Shown one piece after another: positions 41,381 to 53,698 of a DNA stretch of 64,000 nucleotides. Position numbers and translations under genes: made by a program. Under the pieces are notes generated by a model, which saw only the letters and a program-made list of their open reading frames with translations, was not told where the DNA came from and ran no database searches. Position 1 is the stretch's first letter. Each line of letters starts with the position of its first letter. This stretch comes from Mitsuokella jalaludinii DSM 13811 (GTDB lineage Bacteria > Bacillota > Negativicutes > Selenomonadales > Selenomonadaceae), in contig NZ_JNKR01000001.1 of the NCBI RefSeq assembly GCF_000702905.1, positions 124,001 to 188,000 on the forward strand, given 5' to 3'.

Positions 41381-44300
41381 TCAGGCGCGGCCCGTGCGAA
41401 CGGCGAGCGCATGGAGCTTCGCCGCATCGACTTTCTCGAGGTCGCCCGGGCGCATGCACCACTTCCAGTTGCCGTCCGAAGTGCCCGGTGTGTTCATGCG
41501 GGCACTGCCGTCGAGCTGCAGGAGGTCCTGCATCGGGATGACGGCGAGGCGCGCATTCGACGCATAGGCAAAGCCGATGAGATGGCGTGCAATCTCCTCC
41601 GGCTTGCGCACATCGGCGCGCACGAGATCGGCAATGGCCTTGCGCAGCGACGGTGAGATCTCGTCCTTGAGCCAGCCGACGATCGTGTTGTTGTCGTGCG
41701 TGCCCGTATAGACGATGCTGTTCTCCGGCACAACGGTGCTCAAGCGGTGCTGGTGGTTGAGATAGAGCGTGAACTCGAGCACCTTCATGCCCGGGAAGCC
41801 GCAGTCATCGCGGAGCTTCTCGACCTCCGGCGTGATGATGCCGAGGTCCTCTGCCACGATGGGCAGGCTGCCGAGCGCGCGGCGCACCTCGTCGAAGAAC
41901 GGCTTGCCAGGTCCCGGCAGCCAGCGCCCCTGGATGGCGTTCTTCGCCTTGCCGTCGACTTCCCAGTACGACTCAAAGCCGCGGAAGTGATCGATGCGCA
42001 CGATGTCCACCATCGAGTAGAGCTTGTGGAAGCGCTTCTTCCACCACGTGTAATTCTCCGCCTTCATGGCCTGCCAGTCATACTGCGGGTTGCCCCAGAG
42101 CTGCCCCGTCGCGCTGAAGTAATCGGGCGGTACACCGGCGACCGTATGGGCCGTGCCGTCCGGATTGAGGTCGAAGAGCTGCTGGTTGGCCCAGACATCG
42201 GCGCTGTCCTGCGCGAGGAAGATCGGCATATCGCCCATGATGCGGATGCCCTTCTCCTTTGCGTAATCGTGCAGGTGCTGCCACTGGCGGTGGAAGATGT
42301 ACTGCATGAACTTCTGCAGCGCGATGTCTTCCTCCAGGCGGCTCTTCAGCGATGCGATTGCCGCCGGCTCCCGTTTCTTGACGTTCTCCGGCCAGTCCAT
42401 CCAGCCCTTGTTGTCGTATTCCTTCTTGGCTGCCTCAAAAAGCGCGTAATCATCGAGCCAGTCTGCCTCCTCGCGACAGAAGGCTTCGTAGTCCGGCTGT
42501 GCTGCTGCATCGCGCAGGAAAGCTGCATGTGCCTTGCGCAGGCACTTGTTCTTGAAGACGCGCGCCTGCTCGAAGTCGGCCGACGAATCGAAGTCAGCAT
42601 AGGTGACCTTGGCCTCCTGCTTGCTGAGCCAGCCCCTCTCGATGAGCGCATCGATATCGATGAGCAGCGGGTTGCCCGCAAAGGCTGAAGGCGACTGGTA
42701 CGGCGAATAGCTGTAACCGACCGGGCCGAGCGGAAGGATCTGCCAGACGTGCTGGCCCGCCTTAGCGAGGAAGTCGACGAAGCGGTAAGCTTCTTTGCCG
42801 AAATCGCCGACGCCGTACTTTGACGGCAGCGACGTCGGATGCAGCAGGACACCGGCCTCATGCTTGTAGTGGTGCTCTGGCGGTATGTTCTGCAACAGGA
42901 AACCCTTGAGCGGCAGGATATCGACGGTCAGCTGGCCGTTCTCGACTGTGAAGCGCGTCTCCGGATGGAAGGCATCGGCGAAGACGCCGTCCGCAAAGTC
43001 GCCGACCTGCAACGTGACCGTCTTCGTCTCCTTGAGACTCCTGTTGAAGAGCGAGATGAAACACTCGTCCTTCGCTGGCTCGCCAAAGACATCGCGGCCG
43101 CCGCGCACGAGGCGCGCGAAGGCCATGACATCGTCCTCCGCATAGAGCGGCAACAGCTCGCCCGTCTGCAGGGCCGTGTGCTCGTTGCGCACGCGGATCA
43201 TGCGCTCATAGCGGCTCCTGACGTACGTGTCGCCATTCGCCCAGTTGTAGGGGCGGCGGTTGTACGGGTCCTTGAAGCCCTGCATCGCGATCTCATCGCC
43301 GTAGTAGATGCACGGTACGCCCGGATATGTCATCTGCCAGAGCGCCGCCATGAAGAGGCGCGCCATGCCGAGGTTGTACTGGTCGTCCGACAGGTGCGCG
43401 CGCGACTGCTCGATGGCCGGCATGCCGTCGTAGAACGGCTCCTCACCGAGCACCGTGACGGCGCGTTCCACATCGTGGCTGCCGATGAGGTTCATCATCG
43501 CATAGAAGTTCTCGCGCGGGTAATTCTCGCGCAGGCTCTCGAAGCGGCGCAGGCTCATCTTCGCGTCTGTGCGGCCGAGCAGGAAGTCAAAGAGGATCTG
43601 GCGGAACGGGTAGTTCATCGCCGAATCCATCTCCTGCCCGCAGAGGTATTCGCGCGGCACGCCGTAGGCGACTTTGTGCGACGCATCCTCCCAGACCTCG
43701 CCGATCATGACGGCATCGGGATCTGTCTTCTTGAGCTCTGCAAAGAACGACTGCGAGAAGGCCGCCGGCAGCTCGTCGATGACATCGAGGCGCCAGCCAG
43801 CAATGCCTTCCTTCATCCAGTGGTGCAGCACGCTGTCCTTGTCGTAGATGATGAAGTCCATGTAGGAAGGCGTCGTCTCCTTGACGTCAGGCAGCGTGGA
43901 GAAATTCCACCAGCTCTCGTATTCGTAAGGGAAATTGCGGAAGTTATACCACTCAAAATAAGGGGAATCCGGTGACTGGAAGGCGCCTATCGTGTCGTAC
44001 TGGCCCTCGCGGTTGAAGTAGCGGCTGTTGCTGCCCGTGTGGCTGAAGACGCCATCGATGATGATGCGGATGTCCTTGTCCTTTGCCACATCGACGAGAT
44101 GGCGGAAGTCTTCATTCGAGCCGAGGATTGGGTCGATCTTGTGGTAGTCGCCCGTGTCGTAGTGATGGTTGCTCTCCGACTCGAATACCGGGTTCAGGTA
44201 GATGACCGAGATGCCAAGGCCCTTGAGGTAGTCGAGTTTCTTCTCGATGCCCTTGAGATTGCCGCCGAAGAAGTCGTAGGCGACGATCTCCTTCGTGTCC

Positions 44301-44836
44301 GGATCCTTGTAGTAGCACGGATCATCCTGCCAGCTGGCATGGAAGACCGCACCCCTCTTCTCGATGATGGCATTGCCGTCGCGCGAGAAGCGGTCCGGGA
44401 AGATCTGGTACATGACAGCGTGCTTGAACCAGTCCGGCGTCTTGGCCCCCTTGTTGAATACCGTGATCTGGAACGATGGCGGCACATGGTCGTAGAGCGT
44501 GCCCATGCCGCCGAGTTGTTCTGGATTGTTGCCGTAGTACCAGGTACCGTCCTCCATCGAGATGATGAAGTAATACCAGACGAGGCCTCCCTTTTCTGGC
44601 AGCGGCAGCCAACCGCTGTAGAAATGCTCCTCCTGAAACGGGTCGTCCTGCGTCTCCAAGGGAATCAGATGCTCCCCTGTCTGGTCCTGCCAGCAGCGCA
44701 GGATGACCTGCCGGATGCCCTCCTTCGTGCGCAGGCGCAGCCCCATCCTGACCTTTGATCCCGCTTCAGCCGCCCCGACGGGCGATCGGTAGTTGATATC
44801 CTGAGAATCATGCCAGACTTGATCCTGTGTCAGCAT
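41381..44836 (-). CDS. Bifunctional GH13 glycosidase/debranching-type and GH77 4-alpha-glucanotransferase fusion
   Basis: The 1151-residue protein has an N-terminal beta domain (1-120), a GH13 catalytic domain with YQIFPDRFSRDG (143-154), GWRLDVID (nucleophile D351), MIGEVWED (acid E380) and NLIGSHD (D455), and from about 659 a full MalQ domain (GVLLHPTSLPSKYGVGDFG, DIVRIDHFRGFESYW, PIVAEDLG, YTGTHDNNT). The GH13 part recalls neopullulanase/maltogenic enzymes; it may debranch or trim maltodextrins released by GlgP, and the GH77 part rearranges them. It is the last gene of the glg operon. GGAGGAGTTTTC precedes the ATG. Confidence 0.9.
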   Translation of the reverse strand: MLTQDQVWHDSQDINYRSPVGAAEAGSKVRMGLRLRTKEGIRQVILRCWQDQTGEHLIPLETQDDPFQEEHFYSGWLPLPEKGGLVWYYFIISMEDGTWYYGNNPEQLGGMGTLYDHVPPSFQITVFNKGAKTPDWFKHAVMYQIFPDRFSRDGNAIIEKRGAVFHASWQDDPCYYKDPDTKEIVAYDFFGGNLKGIEKKLDYLKGLGISVIYLNPVFESESNHHYDTGDYHKIDPILGSNEDFRHLVDVAKDKDIRIIIDGVFSHTGSNSRYFNREGQYDTIGAFQSPDSPYFEWYNFRNFPYEYESWWNFSTLPDVKETTPSYMDFIIYDKDSVLHHWMKEGIAGWRLDVIDELPAAFSQSFFAELKKTDPDAVMIGEVWEDASHKVAYGVPREYLCGQEMDSAMNYPFRQILFDFLLGRTDAKMSLRRFESLRENYPRENFYAMMNLIGSHDVERAVTVLGEEPFYDGMPAIEQSRAHLSDDQYNLGMARLFMAALWQMTYPGVPCIYYGDEIAMQGFKDPYNRRPYNWANGDTYVRSRYERMIRVRNEHTALQTGELLPLYAEDDVMAFARLVRGGRDVFGEPAKDECFISLFNRSLKETKTVTLQVGDFADGVFADAFHPETRFTVENGQLTVDILPLKGFLLQNIPPEHHYKHEAGVLLHPTSLPSKYGVGDFGKEAYRFVDFLAKAGQHVWQILPLGPVGYSYSPYQSPSAFAGNPLLIDIDALIERGWLSKQEAKVTYADFDSSADFEQARVFKNKCLRKAHAAFLRDAAAQPDYEAFCREEADWLDDYALFEAAKKEYDNKGWMDWPENVKKREPAAIASLKSRLEEDIALQKFMQYIFHRQWQHLHDYAKEKGIRIMGDMPIFLAQDSADVWANQQLFDLNPDGTAHTVAGVPPDYFSATGQLWGNPQYDWQAMKAENYTWWKKRFHKLYSMVDIVRIDHFRGFESYWEVDGKAKNAIQGRWLPGPGKPFFDEVRRALGSLPIVAEDLGIITPEVEKLRDDCGFPGMKVLEFTLYLNHQHRLSTVVPENSIVYTGTHDNNTIVGWLKDEISPSLRKAIADLVRADVRKPEEIARHLIGFAYASNARLAVIPMQDLLQLDGSARMNTPGTSDGNWKWCMRPGDLEKVDAAKLHALAVRTGRA

Positions 44837-44918: not shown

Positions 44919-46361
44919 TCATGCTTCCGAGCCAGTCAGCTTCTCATAGAGTGCCTTGTATTCGCGAGCCGATTCCTTCCAGCTGTAATCCGAATTCATG
45001 GCATTCTCCACGATCTGCTTCCACTCCTCATAGTTCTCGTAGGCGCTCAGGGCGCGCTTGAGGGCATACATCATCTCATGCGCATTGTAGTCGGCGAAGC
45101 GGAAGCCATTGCCCTGCTTCGTGTACTTGTCGTACGGGATGATCGTATCCTTGAGACCGCCCGTCTCGCGCACGACCGGCACAGAGCCGTAGCGCAGCGC
45201 GATGAGCTGGCCGATGCCGCACGGTTCGTAATTCGACGGCATCAGGAAGATATCCGAGGCCGCGTAAATGCGCTGTGCGAGCTGGTTCGAGAAGTAGATA
45301 TTGGCCGAAACCTTCGTCGGGAAGCGCCAAGCCAGGCCCTTGAACCAATCCTCATACGCCTTGTCGCCCGTGCCCAGCAGGACGAACTGGATATCCTCAT
45401 GCTGCAGGATCTCGTCCATCATGCGCACGACGAGGTCGAGGCCCTTCGCAGCGACGAGACGCGTGACCATGGCGACCATCGGCGTGCGGCGGCTGATTGG
45501 CAGCCCGAGGTCCTTCTGCAAGAGGACCTTGTTGTCGGCCTTGCGGTCGAGCGTCGTGACATCGTAGCCCTCGTAGAGGTTCTTGTCCTTGCTCGGGTTG
45601 TAGACATCATAGTCAATGCCGTTGACAATGCCGAAGAGCGTGTCTTGGCGGCTGCGCAGCAGGCCGTCGAGATGCTCGCCGAAGTACTCGTACTGGATCT
45701 CCTTGGCGTACGTCTTGCTGACCGTCGAGATGTAGTCGGCGTAAATCAGGCCACCCTTCATGAAGTTGACGGCATCGTAGAACTCGAGGTCGCCGTTGTT
45801 GAAGTACTTCCAGTCAAGGCCGAGTACATCGCTCATGACGTTCTTCGGGAAGACGCCCTGATACTTGAGATTGTGGATCGTGTAGAGCGTGCGGATGTTC
45901 TCGTAACGCTCATCGCCCTGGTGCTCGATCTTCAGCAGAACATTGACGAGGCCAGAGTGCCAGTCATTCGTATGGATGACATCCGGCCAAAAGTCCATGG
46001 CGGGCAGCAGGTTCAGGACGGCGCGGCAGAAGAACGAGAAGCGCTCTGCATCATCGTCATAGCCGTAGAAGCCCTCGCGCTTGAAGTACTCTTCGTTGTC
46101 GACAAAGTAGTACGTAACGCCGTCGTGCTCGAGCTTGTCGAGGCCAACGAACTTGGAACGCCAGGCGACAGGGATCTCCCCGTCGTAGACATGCTCCATC
46201 GCATCGCGGAACTTCTCCGGGATCTTGCCGAATTTCGGCATGATGACGCGGACATCGACGCCCTCGGCCTTGAGAGCCTTCGGCAGCGAGCCAGCCACAT
46301 CGGCAAGGCCGCCCGTCTTGGCAAAAGGCACAGCCTCAGAAGCAACATATAGAACTTTCAT
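44919..46361 (-). CDS. glgA: Glycogen synthase (ADP-glucose)
   Basis: The 480-residue GT5 enzyme has the N-terminal ADP-glucose motif KTGGLADVAGSLPKAL, HTNDWHSGLVNVLL, YTIHNLKYQG and the C-terminal LMPSNYEPCGIGQLIALRYGSVPVVRETGGLKDT (GT-B acceptor and nucleotide site). It extends alpha-1,4-glucan chains. The start is ATG at 46361 with GGGGGATTCTGGA upstream; a frame extension into the leader is not supported. It lies between glgB and the GH13/GH77 fusion in the operon. Confidence 0.97.
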   Translation of the reverse strand: MKVLYVASEAVPFAKTGGLADVAGSLPKALKAEGVDVRVIMPKFGKIPEKFRDAMEHVYDGEIPVAWRSKFVGLDKLEHDGVTYYFVDNEEYFKREGFYGYDDDAERFSFFCRAVLNLLPAMDFWPDVIHTNDWHSGLVNVLLKIEHQGDERYENIRTLYTIHNLKYQGVFPKNVMSDVLGLDWKYFNNGDLEFYDAVNFMKGGLIYADYISTVSKTYAKEIQYEYFGEHLDGLLRSRQDTLFGIVNGIDYDVYNPSKDKNLYEGYDVTTLDRKADNKVLLQKDLGLPISRRTPMVAMVTRLVAAKGLDLVVRMMDEILQHEDIQFVLLGTGDKAYEDWFKGLAWRFPTKVSANIYFSNQLAQRIYAASDIFLMPSNYEPCGIGQLIALRYGSVPVVRETGGLKDTIIPYDKYTKQGNGFRFADYNAHEMMYALKRALSAYENYEEWKQIVENAMNSDYSWKESAREYKALYEKLTGSEA

Positions 46362-46417: not shown

Positions 46418-48724
46418 TCAGGATTCACCGGCTGCGGCTTTTGCCGTCTTGCTGGCGGTCTTCTTGGCCGTTGTCTTGCGTGTCGTCTTCCTTGCCGTCG
46501 TCTTGGCGGCCGTAGAGCGACGGCGTCGCGCCTTCTTCGGCGCAGCCTCGCCCTCTGCTGCGGCCTTGGCGGCCTTTTCGGCCTCTCTCTTGGCCTTGGC
46601 GGCAGCCTTCTCTTCCTCCGTCATGCGAGGACGGCCGCGGCGCTTCGGCTTGTCCGCAGGAGCCCCTTCCGAAGGCTCTACTTTCTTCGCAGCCGTACGT
46701 CTCTTCACCGTCTTCTTCGGCATTGCTTCGGCGGCTTCTGCCTTGTCGGCAGAACTTTTCTCTTCATGGCCTCTGACCTCGAGCTCCGCCGGAGCCTCGT
46801 CAAAAGAATTCCGGCCAGATGCCACTTGTCCCTTGTGGCGCAGGTAGATGGTCGCCATCGGCGGGATGGTCAAGAGGATGGACTGATCGCGGTCATGCCA
46901 CTTGACATCCTCCGTCTTGATCTCGCCCTCATTCTTGACACCGCTGCCGCCGAAGGCCTCATCATCCGAGTTGAACACCTCGATGTAACTGCCCTTCTCC
47001 GGCACGCCGATGCGGTAATCGTGGCGGACCTCCGGCGTGAAGTTGCAGACGGCGACGATGTAGTCGGACGGGTCCTCCGCCTTGCGGATGAAGGAGACGA
47101 CGCTGTTCTCGTTGTCGTTGCAATCGATCCACTGGAAGCCATTCCAGTCGAAGTCGACCTGCCAGAGCGCCTTGTGGTCGCAGTAGAACTTGTTGAGCGC
47201 GCGGCTGTACTCGAGCATCTTCTTGTGCATCGGATACTGCTGCGGCAGATGCCAGTCGAGGCTGTCATCGTAATTCCACTCGATGAACTGGCCGAACTCG
47301 CCGCCCATGAACAGCAGCTTCTTGCCTGGATGTGCGATCCAGTACGCGAAGAACGTGCGCAGGCCGGCAAACTTCTGCCAGTAATCGCCAGGCATCTTGC
47401 TGATCAGCGAACACTTGCCGTGCACGACCTCATCGTGCGAGAGCGGCAGCACGAAGTTCTCGCTGAACGCATACATGAAGGAAAACGTGACCTTGTCGTG
47501 GTTCCACTTGCGGTAGATCGGGTCGAGCGACATGTACTTGAGCATGTCGTTCATCCAGCCCATGTTCCACTTGTAGTTGAAGCCCATGCCACCCATGTAG
47601 ACAGGCTTCGAGATCAGCGGCCAGGCCGTCGATTCCTCGGCAATCATCAAGGCCTGCGGATGGTACTTGAAGATGCTCTCATTGAGTTTCTTGAGGAAGT
47701 CCATGGCCTCGAGGTTGCCCGTGTCGCCGTACTTGTTCGGCGTCCACTCGCCGTCCTTGCGGCCATAGTTGAGGTAGAGCATATTCGCGACTGCATCGAT
47801 GCGCAGACCGTCGATGTGGAACTCCTCGAACCAGAACATCGCGTTCGAGATCAGGAAGCTCTGGACCTCCGTGCGGCCGTAGTCGAAGTTTGTCGTGCCC
47901 CACTCCCAGTTCTCGGCAAGCTGCTCGTTGTCGGACTCGTAGAGCGTCTGGCCATCGAAGTGGCGCAAGCCCTGCTCATCCTTGCAGAAATGGCCCGGGA
48001 CCCAGTCCATGATGACGGCGATGCCGTTCTCATGCGCCTTGTCCACAAGATAGCGGAAGTCGTCCGGTGTGCCGAAGCGACTCGTCACGGCGTAATAACC
48101 CGTGATCTGGTAGCCCCACGAGCCATCGAAGGGATGCTCGCAGAGCGGCATGAACTCGATGTGCGTGTAGTTCATCTTCTTGACGTAGTCGATGAGCTGA
48201 TCCGCGAGGTCGCGATAGGACAGGTACTCTCCATCCTTCGTGCGGCGCCAGGAGCCTGCATGCACTTCATACGTCAGCATCGGGCGCTCATAGGATGATT
48301 CCTTTTTCTTCTGCTCGAACCAGTCGCCGTCCTTCCACTCGTACTTCGAGAGGTCGTAGACGCGCGATGCCGTGTTCGGCTTTTTCTCCGCATAGAAGCC
48401 GTACGGGTCGGCCTTCATGATGCGCGGCCCTCCCCACTGCGGCTCGATCGCATACTTGTAGATGGCGCCTTCCTCGATACCTGGGACGAATACCTCCCAG
48501 ATCTCGCCGTCGCGGCCGCGCGTCATCGGATTGACGCGCGTATCCCACTCATTGAAGTCACCGACGACGCTGATGGACTTCGCATGCGGTGCCCAGACAG
48601 CAAAGCGCACGCCCTTCTTGCCGTCGCTCTCGACAAAATGAGCGCCGAGCATCTCATATGCATGATAATTCGTCCCCTGATGGAAGAGATAGAGGTCGAA
48701 CTCGCTTAATTCTGATGTTTTCAC
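46418..48724 (-). CDS. glgB: 1,4-alpha-glucan branching enzyme with a long basic C-terminal tail
   Basis: The 768-residue GH13 enzyme adds alpha-1,6 branches. Residues 1-632 match GlgB: FAVWAPHAKSISVVGDFNEW (CBM48), MPLCEHPFDGSWGYQITGYYAVTSRFGTPDDF, GLRIDAVANMLY (nucleophile D), MIAEEST (acid E), LPLSHDEVVHGK (HD). About 136 extra residues follow: an acidic linker, then a Lys/Ala/Thr/Arg-rich region with PKKTVKRR, the AT-hook-like KRRGRPRM at about 694-701, KAKREAEKAAKAAA and TARKTTRKTTAKK. Such histone-H1-like tails are not part of GlgB. The start is GTG at 48724 with GAGGGGGATTATT upstream. Confidence 0.95.
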   Translation of the reverse strand: MKTSELSEFDLYLFHQGTNYHAYEMLGAHFVESDGKKGVRFAVWAPHAKSISVVGDFNEWDTRVNPMTRGRDGEIWEVFVPGIEEGAIYKYAIEPQWGGPRIMKADPYGFYAEKKPNTASRVYDLSKYEWKDGDWFEQKKKESSYERPMLTYEVHAGSWRRTKDGEYLSYRDLADQLIDYVKKMNYTHIEFMPLCEHPFDGSWGYQITGYYAVTSRFGTPDDFRYLVDKAHENGIAVIMDWVPGHFCKDEQGLRHFDGQTLYESDNEQLAENWEWGTTNFDYGRTEVQSFLISNAMFWFEEFHIDGLRIDAVANMLYLNYGRKDGEWTPNKYGDTGNLEAMDFLKKLNESIFKYHPQALMIAEESTAWPLISKPVYMGGMGFNYKWNMGWMNDMLKYMSLDPIYRKWNHDKVTFSFMYAFSENFVLPLSHDEVVHGKCSLISKMPGDYWQKFAGLRTFFAYWIAHPGKKLLFMGGEFGQFIEWNYDDSLDWHLPQQYPMHKKMLEYSRALNKFYCDHKALWQVDFDWNGFQWIDCNDNENSVVSFIRKAEDPSDYIVAVCNFTPEVRHDYRIGVPEKGSYIEVFNSDDEAFGGSGVKNEGEIKTEDVKWHDRDQSILLTIPPMATIYLRHKGQVASGRNSFDEAPAELEVRGHEEKSSADKAEAAEAMPKKTVKRRTAAKKVEPSEGAPADKPKRRGRPRMTEEEKAAAKAKREAEKAAKAAAEGEAAPKKARRRRSTAAKTTARKTTRKTTAKKTASKTAKAAAGES

Positions 48725-48787
48725 AATAATCCCCCTCTGTGTATCCCCTTGGAATCGGGCAGGGGCATAGCCCCTGCGATTCACAGC

Positions 48788-51256
48788 TTACGGGATCATG
48801 ACCGGCTTGACCTGCCAGATTTCATTTGCGTACTCATCGATTGTGCGGTCGGACGAGAAGACGCCCGAGTTCGCGATGTTGATGGCCGAGGACTTCAGCC
48901 ACTGGAAGCGCTTCTGGTAGCGCTTCATGATCTCGACATGCGCGTCAGCATAGGCATTGAAATCCTTGAGGATGAAGAACTCATCGTTTGCGCGGATCAG
49001 GTAGTCCGACAGTGACTGGAAATTGCCGTACGTGCCGTCCGTCAGCTGGTTGACGACGAGGCGCACGTTCTCATTCGTATTGTACTCATCCCAGGCAGAA
49101 TACGTGCCCGTCGCATAGTAGTTGAGAACTTCCTCTGCCTTGAGGCCGAAGATCACACAGTTCGCGTCGCCACCGACCGCTTCGCGGATCTCGACGTTCG
49201 CGCCGTCGAGCGTGCCGAGCGTGATGGCGCCGTTCATCATGAACTTCATGTTGCCCGTGCCCGAAGCTTCCTTCGAAGCCGTGGAGATCTGCTCACTGAC
49301 ATCGGCCGCCGGATAGACGATCTCGCCGATGGAGACGCCGAAGTTCTCGATGAATACGACCTTGATCTTGCCCTTGATGCTCGCATCGTTGTTGACCTTG
49401 TCCGCGACGGCATTGATCAGGCGGATCGTCTCCTTCGCGATGTAGTAGCCCGGTGCAGCCTTGCCGCCGAAGAAGTACGTCGTCGGCAGCATGTCGAAGT
49501 CCGGATCCGTCTTGAGCTTGTGGTACTGGTACATGATGTGCAGGATGTTCATGAGCTGGCGCTTGTATGAATGGATGCGCTTGACCTGGATGTCGAAGAT
49601 GCTGTCCGGATCGACATCGATGCCATTGTGCTCTTTGACGTACTTCGCGAGTCCTTCCTTGCGCAGGTGCTTGATGGCGCCGAGCTTCTCGAGGAACGGC
49701 TTATCCTCGACGTAGTCGTTGAGCAGGTCGAGCTGCTCCGGATGACGATGCCAGCGGCGGCTGCCGATGGTCGCATCGATGAGGTCCGAGAGCTCCGGGT
49801 TTGCGCCCATGAGCCAGCGGCGGTGCGTGATGCCGTTCGTCTTGTTGTTGAACATGCGCGGGTTGTACTCGTAGAAGTCGTGCAGTGTCGTGGACTTGAG
49901 GATGTCCGTGTGGATCTTCGCGACACCGTTGACGCTGTGCGAGCCGACAATCGACAGACGGGCCATGTGGACCATGCCGTCCTGGATGATGGAGAGCTCG
50001 TGGACTTTCTGCTCGTTGTTCGGATAGCGGTCGCGCACATCGATGAGCCAGCGGCGGTTGATCTCGTCGATGATCATGTAGATTCGCGGCAACAGCGGCT
50101 TGAACATGTCGATTGGCCACTTCTCAAGTGCCTCCGGCATGATCGTGTGGTTCGTGTAGGCAATCGTGTTCTTCGTGATAGCCCATGCCTCATTCCACTC
50201 GAGGCCCTCCTCATCAACGAGGATGCGCATGAGCTCGGCGACGCAGAGTGCCGGATGCGTGTCGTTGATGTGGATGGCGATCTTCTGGGCGAAGTCATGG
50301 ATGTCCATGCCGACCTTCTTGTAGTGACGGACGATGCTCTGGACACCAGCCGAGACGAAGAAGTACTCCTGTATAAGGCGCAGGCGACGGCCATCGTAGG
50401 TGCTGTCATCCGGATAGAGGTAGCGCGTGATGCTCTCGACGAAGTTGCGGTACTCGTTCTTCTGGCGCATCTGTTCCTGCGTCAGGCGGCCGTAGTCGGA
50501 GAAGTCGCGGTTGACCTCTGCATTCCAGAGGCGAAGTGTGTTGACCGTGTTGTTGTGATAACCGACGATCGGCACGTCGTAAGGCACAGCCATGACCGTC
50601 ATCGGATTCTCGTAGACGAGCTTGAGTCTGCCGTCCGGCATCTTCTTCATGTAGGCATTGCCGTTGAACTTGACATCGATGGCCTTATCCGGCTTGCGGT
50701 ACTCCCAGGCAAAGCCGTTCTTGAGCCAGTTGTCCGGGATCTCGACCTGGTTGCCCTCGATGATCTTCTGCTCGAACAGGCCGTACTGGTAGCGGATGCT
50801 GCAGCCGTGGCCCGGCAGGCGGTGTGCTGCCATCGAGTCGATAAAGCAGGCGGCAAGGCGGCCGAGGCCGCCGTTGCCGAGGCCTGCGTCTGGCTCTTCA
50901 TCGAACGTCTTGACGAGGCTGAGATCGAAGTCCTCCAGGACTTCCTTGACGGCCTCTTCGATGCCGAGATTGATGAGATTCGACTTGAGCAGGCGGCCGA
51001 GCAGGAATTCGATGGAGAAATAGTAGATCTGCTTCTCCTGGCGCTCTGCATACGTCTTGTTTGTCTTGATCCAGTTGTCGGAGATGAACTGCTTTGCGGT
51101 AGCAGCCACCGTCTGGTAAACCTCATTCTCCGTGAGGTCCTTGATCTCACGGCCATACATCAGATGTGCCGTGCTGACAAAACGAAGTTTCAGATTCTCC
51201 TTGAGCTTGTCAAACTCGCGGCTCTTCTGTTTCTGTTCCTTTGTTTCTCGTGCCAA
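48788..51256 (-). CDS. glgP: Glycogen phosphorylase
   Basis: The 822-residue GT35 enzyme releases glucose-1-phosphate from glycogen. It has GNGGLGRLAACFIDSMA, the substrate and PLP-site region EASGTGNMKFMMNGAITLGTLDGANVEI (PLP lysine in GNMKFMMNG), and VKRIHSYKRQLMNILH. The start is taken as TTG at 51256, since AAGGGGAG lies eight bases upstream; GTG at 51265 is possible. Between glgD and glgB in the operon, it covers glycogen breakdown, so synthesis and breakdown genes are co-transcribed. Confidence 0.97.
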   Translation of the reverse strand: MARETKEQKQKSREFDKLKENLKLRFVSTAHLMYGREIKDLTENEVYQTVAATAKQFISDNWIKTNKTYAERQEKQIYYFSIEFLLGRLLKSNLINLGIEEAVKEVLEDFDLSLVKTFDEEPDAGLGNGGLGRLAACFIDSMAAHRLPGHGCSIRYQYGLFEQKIIEGNQVEIPDNWLKNGFAWEYRKPDKAIDVKFNGNAYMKKMPDGRLKLVYENPMTVMAVPYDVPIVGYHNNTVNTLRLWNAEVNRDFSDYGRLTQEQMRQKNEYRNFVESITRYLYPDDSTYDGRRLRLIQEYFFVSAGVQSIVRHYKKVGMDIHDFAQKIAIHINDTHPALCVAELMRILVDEEGLEWNEAWAITKNTIAYTNHTIMPEALEKWPIDMFKPLLPRIYMIIDEINRRWLIDVRDRYPNNEQKVHELSIIQDGMVHMARLSIVGSHSVNGVAKIHTDILKSTTLHDFYEYNPRMFNNKTNGITHRRWLMGANPELSDLIDATIGSRRWHRHPEQLDLLNDYVEDKPFLEKLGAIKHLRKEGLAKYVKEHNGIDVDPDSIFDIQVKRIHSYKRQLMNILHIMYQYHKLKTDPDFDMLPTTYFFGGKAAPGYYIAKETIRLINAVADKVNNDASIKGKIKVVFIENFGVSIGEIVYPAADVSEQISTASKEASGTGNMKFMMNGAITLGTLDGANVEIREAVGGDANCVIFGLKAEEVLNYYATGTYSAWDEYNTNENVRLVVNQLTDGTYGNFQSLSDYLIRANDEFFILKDFNAYADAHVEIMKRYQKRFQWLKSSAINIANSGVFSSDRTIDEYANEIWQVKPVMIP

Positions 51257-51371
51257 AAAAAACACTCCCCTTGGCTTTGACTTACTTGATTTATAAAAGA
51301 AAAGCCGTCGTAAATGAGGTGCCAGCCCATACCTGCCAGCGCATTTCTATTTACAACGGCTTGTCTCAATC

Positions 51372-52478: not shown

Positions 52479-52540
52479 TTTGATTCACTCCGATCTTCTG
52501 GTCTGTGTTCTGTTGTATCTATGAGGTTGAGCTGACAATC

Positions 52541-53698
52541 TTAGCCGGCCTGCTTGCTGCCTGCCGCTGTTGCGACAATCGTCTCGCCATCTGCGACGAC
52601 CGTGATGGCACCCTTCTCACCCGTCACCTTTGCTCCTTCGCCGATCTCGCAATTCTGTGCGAGGATCGCATAGTCGACGACAGCATTCTCACGCACGACT
52701 GTCGACGGCATGATGACCGAATTGCGCACCTTTGCGCCCTTGCCGATGCGGACGCCTGGGAAGATGACCGAGTTCTCGACATCGCCGAGGATCATCGAGC
52801 CCTCGCTGACCATCGAGTTCTTGACCGTGGCATCAGGGCCTACATAATGCGGCGGCATCGAGGGATTCGAGGAATAGATCTTCCAATCGCCATTGAGCTC
52901 GAACGGCGGCTAATCCTGCAAGAGGTCCATGTTTGCCTGCCAGAGGCTCTCAATCGTTCCGACATCTTTCCAATAGCCATCGAAAGCGTACGAGTAGAGA
53001 CGTGCTTTATCGGCAAGCATCTTCGGGATGATGTTCTTGCCGAAGTCATGGCTCGACGTCTCATCCTTCGCATCCTCTTCGAGGTACTTCTTGAGGAAGT
53101 CCTTGTTGAAGATGTAGATGCCCATCGAAGCGAGGTTGCTCTTCGGCTTAGCCGGCTTCTCCTCGAATTCCTCGATGCGGCCCGTCTTGTCCGTGTTCAT
53201 GATGCCGAAGCGCGGGGCCTCATCCCACGGGACTTCGATGACACCGATTGTGGCCTCAGCCTTATTGGCCTTGTGGGCATCGAGCATCCAGGAATAATCC
53301 ATCGTGTAGATGTGGTCGCCCGAGAGGATCAGGACGTACTCCGGGTCCGCCAAGTCGATGAAGTTCAGGTTCTGGTAGATGGCATCTGCCGTGCCGCGAT
53401 ACCAGTCCGCACCTTTCTCGCGTGCATACGGCGGCAGAATGAAGACACCGCCCTCTTTCTTATCGAGATCCCAGGCACTGCCGGAAGCCAGGTAATTGTG
53501 AAGCTCGAGCGGACGGTACTGCGTCAGTACACCGACCTTGTCGATGCCGGAATTGGCGCAGTTACTGAGTGGAAAGTCAATGATGCGGTACTTCCCGCCA
53601 AACGGGACGGCCGGCTTTGCGATCTTCTTCGTCAAAGCGCCAAGGCGGCTTCCCTGTCCGCCAGCCAGTATCATTGCTAAGCATTCTGTCTTTCTCAT
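52541..53698 (-). pseudogene. glgC: Glucose-1-phosphate adenylyltransferase GlgC with in-frame amber stop
   Basis: Codons 1-262 encode the catalytic domain: [81 protein letters not shown], and end [11 protein letters not shown] (stop at 52910-52912). The same frame continues past the stop as PPFELNGDWKIYSSNPSMPPHYVGPD followed by the beta-helix domain and ends at 52541, with no other damage. The 386-codon span equals a normal GlgC. One substitution (for example GAG or AAG to TAG) explains it. Without the C-terminal domain the enzyme would probably be inactive, so glycogen synthesis may be lost unless the stop is read through or is an error. Confidence 0.85.

Follow-up and report, generated by a model that had tools for sequence, protein, structure and literature searches.

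Among bacterial proteins that bind DNA, AT-hooks and basic tails resembling histone H1 are familiar, and branching enzymes are likewise well known; bacterial glycogen enzymes are usually seen as free cytosolic enzymes on the granule. In mycobacteria HupB, an HU protein, carries an H1-like PAKK/KAAK C-terminal tail that is needed for its association with the nucleoid (PMC5676037), and in actinobacterial topoisomerase I (TopA) C-terminal lysine repeats give processivity (PMC7398561). The substrate of TopA is DNA, so that its tail aids catalysis directly. The AT-hook, found in HMGA and in bacterial WhiB7, is defined by a GRP core with K/R flanks, often including proline (PMC11354804).

Here we analyze a 1,4-alpha-glucan branching enzyme, GlgB, encoded within a window of 64,000 nucleotides (the whole stretch under study) from Mitsuokella jalaludinii DSM 13811. 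It shares with HupB a long Lys/Ala-rich, H1-like C-terminal extension, with TopA the order of a catalytic part followed by a basic C-terminal tail (lysine repeats in the case of TopA), and with HMGA and WhiB7 a GRP core that has basic and proline flanks and lies in a disordered basic region. HupB, however, is a DNA-binding protein whose binding is proven, whereas GlgB is a glycogen enzyme for which we infer binding to nucleic acid; the substrate of TopA is DNA and that of GlgB a neutral glucan; and the known AT-hook proteins belong to chromatin and transcription, unlike this metabolic enzyme with its single hook and a helix behind it. In its whole core and domain order the protein resembles the ordinary GlgBs of Cyanothece/Crocosphaera (5gqu), E. 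coli (1m7x) and Rhodothermus (6joy). What sets it apart from ordinary bacterial enzymes is the basic tail, as nothing comparable is present on any of 28 GlgBs sampled from groups other than Clostridia and Negativicutes, in a cross-phylum collection that is uneven because it was seeded by similarity to the host protein. No paper on a GlgB with an AT-hook, a lysine-rich C-terminal extension or a disordered tail was found in the open-access literature, and the combination of an H1-like/AT-hook tail with a branching enzyme is undescribed in the literature so searched. Our tentative reading, plausible though somewhat short of probable, is that the tail serves as a selected, disordered polycationic tether of glycogen-synthesis enzymes, most likely to nucleic acid.

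Gene and Protein Architecture

The glgB frame runs uninterrupted on the minus strand to a TGA at 46418-46420, either from a GTG at 48784, which would give 788 residues, or from the likelier GTG at 48724, which is preceded by AGAGGGGG (Table 1). The product is a full-length match to the NCBIfam models PRK05402, PRK12313 and TIGR01515 (955.6, 954.3 and 905.4 bits), all three far above the curated cut-off and spanning residues 23-653. In the numbering of the 788-aa frame the NCBIfam models end at residues 649-653 and Pfam Alpha-amylase_C at 650, and in that of the 768-aa form the family matches stop at the equivalent of residue 633. A complete branching enzyme of about 632 residues had been read ahead of the tail, and the profile matches bear this out; the range given for the tail, 46421-46828, is correct to within one codon. 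The GH13 catalytic motifs GLRIDAVAN, IAEEST and SHDE are intact, their catalytic Asp, Glu and Asp are invariant in the GlgB alignment, and in a structure comparison the predicted model of the core matches the fold of branching enzymes of solved structure.

Table 1. Coordinates in the window of glgB, of the parts of its product and of the adjoining genes
Feature	Position	Strand	Basis or remark
glgB, 1,4-alpha-glucan branching enzyme	46418..48724	minus	768 aa from likely GTG start
Complete GlgB core: CBM48, GH13 catalytic domain, Alpha-amylase_C	46826..48724	minus	Pfam/NCBIfam
GlgB C-terminal tail, 135 aa	46421..46825	minus	sequence; predicted disordered
Acidic linker, ~38 residues (VASGRNSFDEAPAELEVRGHEEKSSADKAEAAEAMPKK)	46712..46825	minus	alignment
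AT-hook KPKRRGRPRM, closing a basic stretch	46622..46651	minus	direct sequence
Predicted lone helix behind AT-hook (TEEEKAAAKAKREAEKAAKAA)	46556..46618	minus	AlphaFold2 703-723, pLDDT 72-76
Terminal K/R/T/A-rich repeat region (PKKARRRRSTAAKTTARKTTRKTTAKKTASKTAKAAAGES)	46421..46540	minus	sequence
glgA, next cluster gene, tail-less in host	44919..46361	minus	ORF calls
glgP, glycogen phosphorylase, upstream of glgB, tail-less	48788..51265	minus	sequence

The tail (A 25%, K 17%, R 11%) has a net charge of +18 and a pI of 10.4, as compared with a pI of 5.2 for the acidic core, and consists of three parts: the acidic linker, the AT-hook with its short helix, and a K/T/A/R repeat region that includes an imperfect 27-base repeat at 46445-46505. 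The motifs KRRGRPRM, AAKAKREAEKAAKAA, TTRKTTAKK and PKKTVKRR that had been picked out by eye are all present. In accordance with the published definition (PMC11354804), the GRP core of the hook is flanked by K/R and P. AlphaFold2 predicts nearly everything beyond residue 636 to be disordered except for the helix; for most of the tail pLDDT does not reach 50. The description of the tail as H1-like with an AT-hook thus stands, a canonical hook core being found inside a disordered basic tail.

Searches of the tail against H1 and AT-hook profiles, which had been suggested as a check, gave no family match in Pfam, NCBIfam or PHROGs, and the sole match among PDB sequences is a chance one (E=1.7). 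The lack of a Pfam AT-hook match up to E=10 is weakly informative, because so short a profile is rarely significant. No histone or H1-like family was matched in the same three collections, nor was a globular winged-helix domain or an HC1/HC2-type match found. The tail is basic, rich in K, A, P and T and predicted to be disordered, which amounts to likeness to H1 and not to membership; judged from its sequence, it is not a histone, and only its composition resembles the H1 C-terminus. It may nevertheless function like a histone tail.

Distribution among Bacteria

Our survey of the host's family covered 115 genomes with 116 GlgB C-termini in all, a basic tail being defined as one of at least 30 residues with a net charge of at least +5. 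Such tails occur on 70 of the 116 proteins, in 19 of 29 genera, with extremes of 208 residues in length and +39 in charge, and are missing from ~40% of the GlgBs, including those of whole genera. Comparison of GlgB from relatives had been proposed as a check, and both congeners have the tail. The start of the linker (x-GQ-x-GAG-x-F) and a [VL]xx[KR]G motif recur in alignments of about ten genera, which speaks for common descent there, and the module of AT-hook and helix is found again in other genera. RGR-type AT-hooks are present in 17 genomes from 5 genera of the family, most tailed genera being without one. On a tree of the neighboring 145-residue domain the tail state changes 12 times, as against 36 when shuffled, a count that does not distinguish gain from loss and is made on a tree with many unresolved forks.

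Beyond the family, 23 of 32 Clostridia/Oscillospirales GlgBs collected by core similarity have a basic tail, as do 15 of the best 30 matches in an order-level draw from Oscillospirales. Several bacterial groups of gut, rumen and mouth thus commonly have basic GlgB tails, and the supposition that the tail is peculiar to the enzyme at hand has to be given up. A Ruminococcus GlgB (L076) ends in a tail of many AAPKAEVKEEVK repeats that is acidic overall, so that repeat-grown tails are not always basic.

Origin and Selection

Both congeners have homologous in-frame GlgB tails, of 133 and 162 aa (139 here by the same count). A frameshift artifact as the origin of the tail is ruled out, as the frame is continuous and common to both. 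Relative to the closest congener dN/dS is 0.167 for the tail and 0.02 for the core, and the synonymous excess in the tail is pronounced (syn/nonsyn p=7e-10); relative to the more distant congener the segment of AT-hook and helix is best conserved, with pN/pS of 0.24 vs 0.47-0.52 elsewhere. The GlgB tail is genuine and under purifying selection at the protein level. In 464 kb of stretches from the host genome (386 ORF calls), which served as genomic background, it is the sole basic C-terminus of the Lys/Ala/Thr type and hence no mere product of chance, other segments of high charge being mostly spurious Arg-rich ORFs in the wrong frame or strand. A protein at L268:11237-12461 of the same genome, which we take to resemble the PSP1/YaaT family, has a long Arg/Ser/Asn-rich C-terminal tail.

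The sequence-only reading had assigned to the tail the same codon style as its neighbors and had entertained a recent fusion of GlgB with a histone-like gene. The codon style is in fact different: CGC accounts for 24 of 24 Arg codons in the core and for 6 of 15 in the tail (p=2.4e-5), while the GC3 values of core and tail are 0.847 and 0.667. Together with the H1-like composition and the AT-hook this might be taken as the mark of a fusion, but GC3 drops in 62 of the 65 long GlgB tails of the family and therefore marks the type of tail, not a recent import. Moreover, the host genome holds no histone-like donor gene, yielding two weak matches (E=0.04 and 0.5, one with internal stops); the tail has no family match; and linker and tail are common to many genera, both congeners included. 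We consider a recent fusion with the gene of a histone-like or nucleoid protein hardly credible. The fast turnover of tail sequence and length, along with the relaxed codon bias, suggests that selection is perhaps solely for charge and disorder.

Split AT-Hooks and Tails on GlgA

In four genomes of genus g12 (loci L125, L126, L127 and L181 of G013, G101, G135 and G139) the GlgB stop codon lies directly 3' of a run of seven or nine A. Next, at the glgB-glgA junction, comes an AT-hook module such as KRKRGRPRLTEEQKAASRAKREAGKTRKFSVGEEPNRRS in the +1 frame, which is open from the poly-A run. Runs of A7 or longer occur at 0.12 per kb of the g12 loci, these very runs included. In the two pairs tested the split ORFs are under purifying selection, with pN/pS of 0.14 (p=5e-5) and 0.22 (p=3e-7). 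A similar arrangement has been described for tssM of Citrobacter rodentium, where transcriptional slippage occurs at poly-A (PMC4256274); there, as in g12, a poly-A run just before the stop is followed by the remainder of the protein in another frame. Unlike in tssM, the g12 runs comprise merely 7 or 9 A, and slippage in g12 is a model. By this analogy, slippage at the poly-A run, or a restart at an overlapping ATG that is seen in two of the four genomes, would be a possible route to expression of the split ORF, which could be a case of programmed slippage or, possibly, a free AT-hook microprotein. A residual chance is left that the split is a homopolymer error of metagenome assemblies.

Host glgB clusters with glgC, glgD, glgP and glgA. 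In a sister family, Succiniclasticum-like and including a genome whose GlgA tail is a near match to a named Succiniclasticum contig, it is GlgA of the glg cluster (L235-L242) that is most extended: 8 of 10 GlgAs have basic tails of 65-219 aa, three of which terminate in the AT-hook KKRGRKPG(S/T)KN, while the GlgB tails in these clusters are shorter and GlgP is tail-less. Histone-like tails on GlgB and, in the sister family, on GlgA point to an unrecognized spatial organization of carbon storage, and their carriers are abundant gut, rumen and oral bacteria.

A simpler explanation would be a low-complexity tail under weak constraint, grown from repeats and tolerated on account of its disorder and solubility; it would lack a specific ligand and have at most the role of an entropic bristle for solubility. 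Its length of anywhere from 0 to 208 aa inside one family, its repeat structure, the whole genera without it and the relaxed codon bias noted above are all consistent with such an origin. We nevertheless think it unlikely in view of the low dN/dS of the tail, the purifying selection on the split AT-hook ORFs, and the retention of a strong net positive charge across 150-200 aa in genera g9, g16 and g21; in addition, tails of this kind are rare elsewhere in the genome, and comparable ones are found on the GlgA of the sister family.

Candidate Ligands of the Tail

A canonical AT-hook in a disordered basic tail of H1 type is most naturally read as a tether to a polyanion. The tail would act electrostatically and keep the enzymes of glycogen synthesis attached to an anionic scaffold. 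Nucleic acid is the likeliest such scaffold, with the AT-hook directed to nucleoid DNA and the H1-like repeats to DNA or RNA; the catalytic core of GlgB itself would be left unchanged. Our preference for nucleic acid is based on the AT-hook module, which is better conserved than the other parts and persists where it has been split off, and on HupB and TopA, for which similar tails have this function. Since most tailed genera have no RGR-type hook, AT-rich DNA is not the common ligand by way of that motif, and charge is the common denominator.

It is this generality of charge over AT-hook that also favors a linker for a metabolon or condensate, in which the basic tail would bind proteins of acidic character (the core of GlgB, or else GlgA, GlgP or GlgC/D) and concentrate the enzymes on the granule, nucleic acid being incidental. 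Since the core is acidic, the tail of pI 10.4 could attach to GlgB or to proteins that work with it, and tails are carried by GlgB or GlgA, the synthesis enzymes of one cluster, but not by GlgP. As the target of the tail, the acidic core or a partner protein that is acidic competes seriously with nucleic acid. A pure charge linker would need no AT-hook, however, and the module is kept in five genera, even when split; nor does AlphaFold2, from an alignment 22 deep, predict any docking of the conserved linker or the tail on the core (pLDDT ~30). On balance we hold the linker to be somewhat unlikely.

Lys-rich disordered tails are able to bind polyphosphate, and the host genome has PPK1, so that docking of GlgB on polyphosphate, the tether that had also been put forward from the sequence, might be considered. 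Yet 35 of the 70 tailed genomes lack PPK1 as well as PPK2, which disfavors a general role of this kind, and the tails in the PPK-less genomes are the more basic ones (median +28 vs +17). An association of PPK with the tail is absent on the tree, where independent pairs are few. A polyphosphate tether is in our estimate very improbable.

The nucleic-acid tether may be extended to the proposition that in Negativicutes and Oscillospirales histone-like tails on GlgB or GlgA anchor the synthesis of glycogen to the nucleoid or to RNA, with the g12 hook made optional by poly-A slippage so that one gene would yield both tailed and tail-less enzyme. In this broad form we regard it as quite improbable.

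Additional Observations

FtsA-like proteins with an N-terminal AT-hook module, RRRGRPRKTEAEKKASAAKRTRAKK, are encoded at L128 and L129 (genomes G026 and G117). In the host cluster codon 262 of glgC (52480-53698, minus strand) is followed by an in-frame TAG, beyond which the remainder of GlgC continues intact without a change of frame. At this site a sense codon is present in four relatives. The isolate may produce a truncated GlgC, or the TAG may be a sequencing error. Adjoining glgA, at 41381-44836 on the minus strand, is an ORF of 1151 aa that resembles a fusion of a GH13 amylase-type enzyme with a MalQ-type 4-alpha-glucanotransferase.
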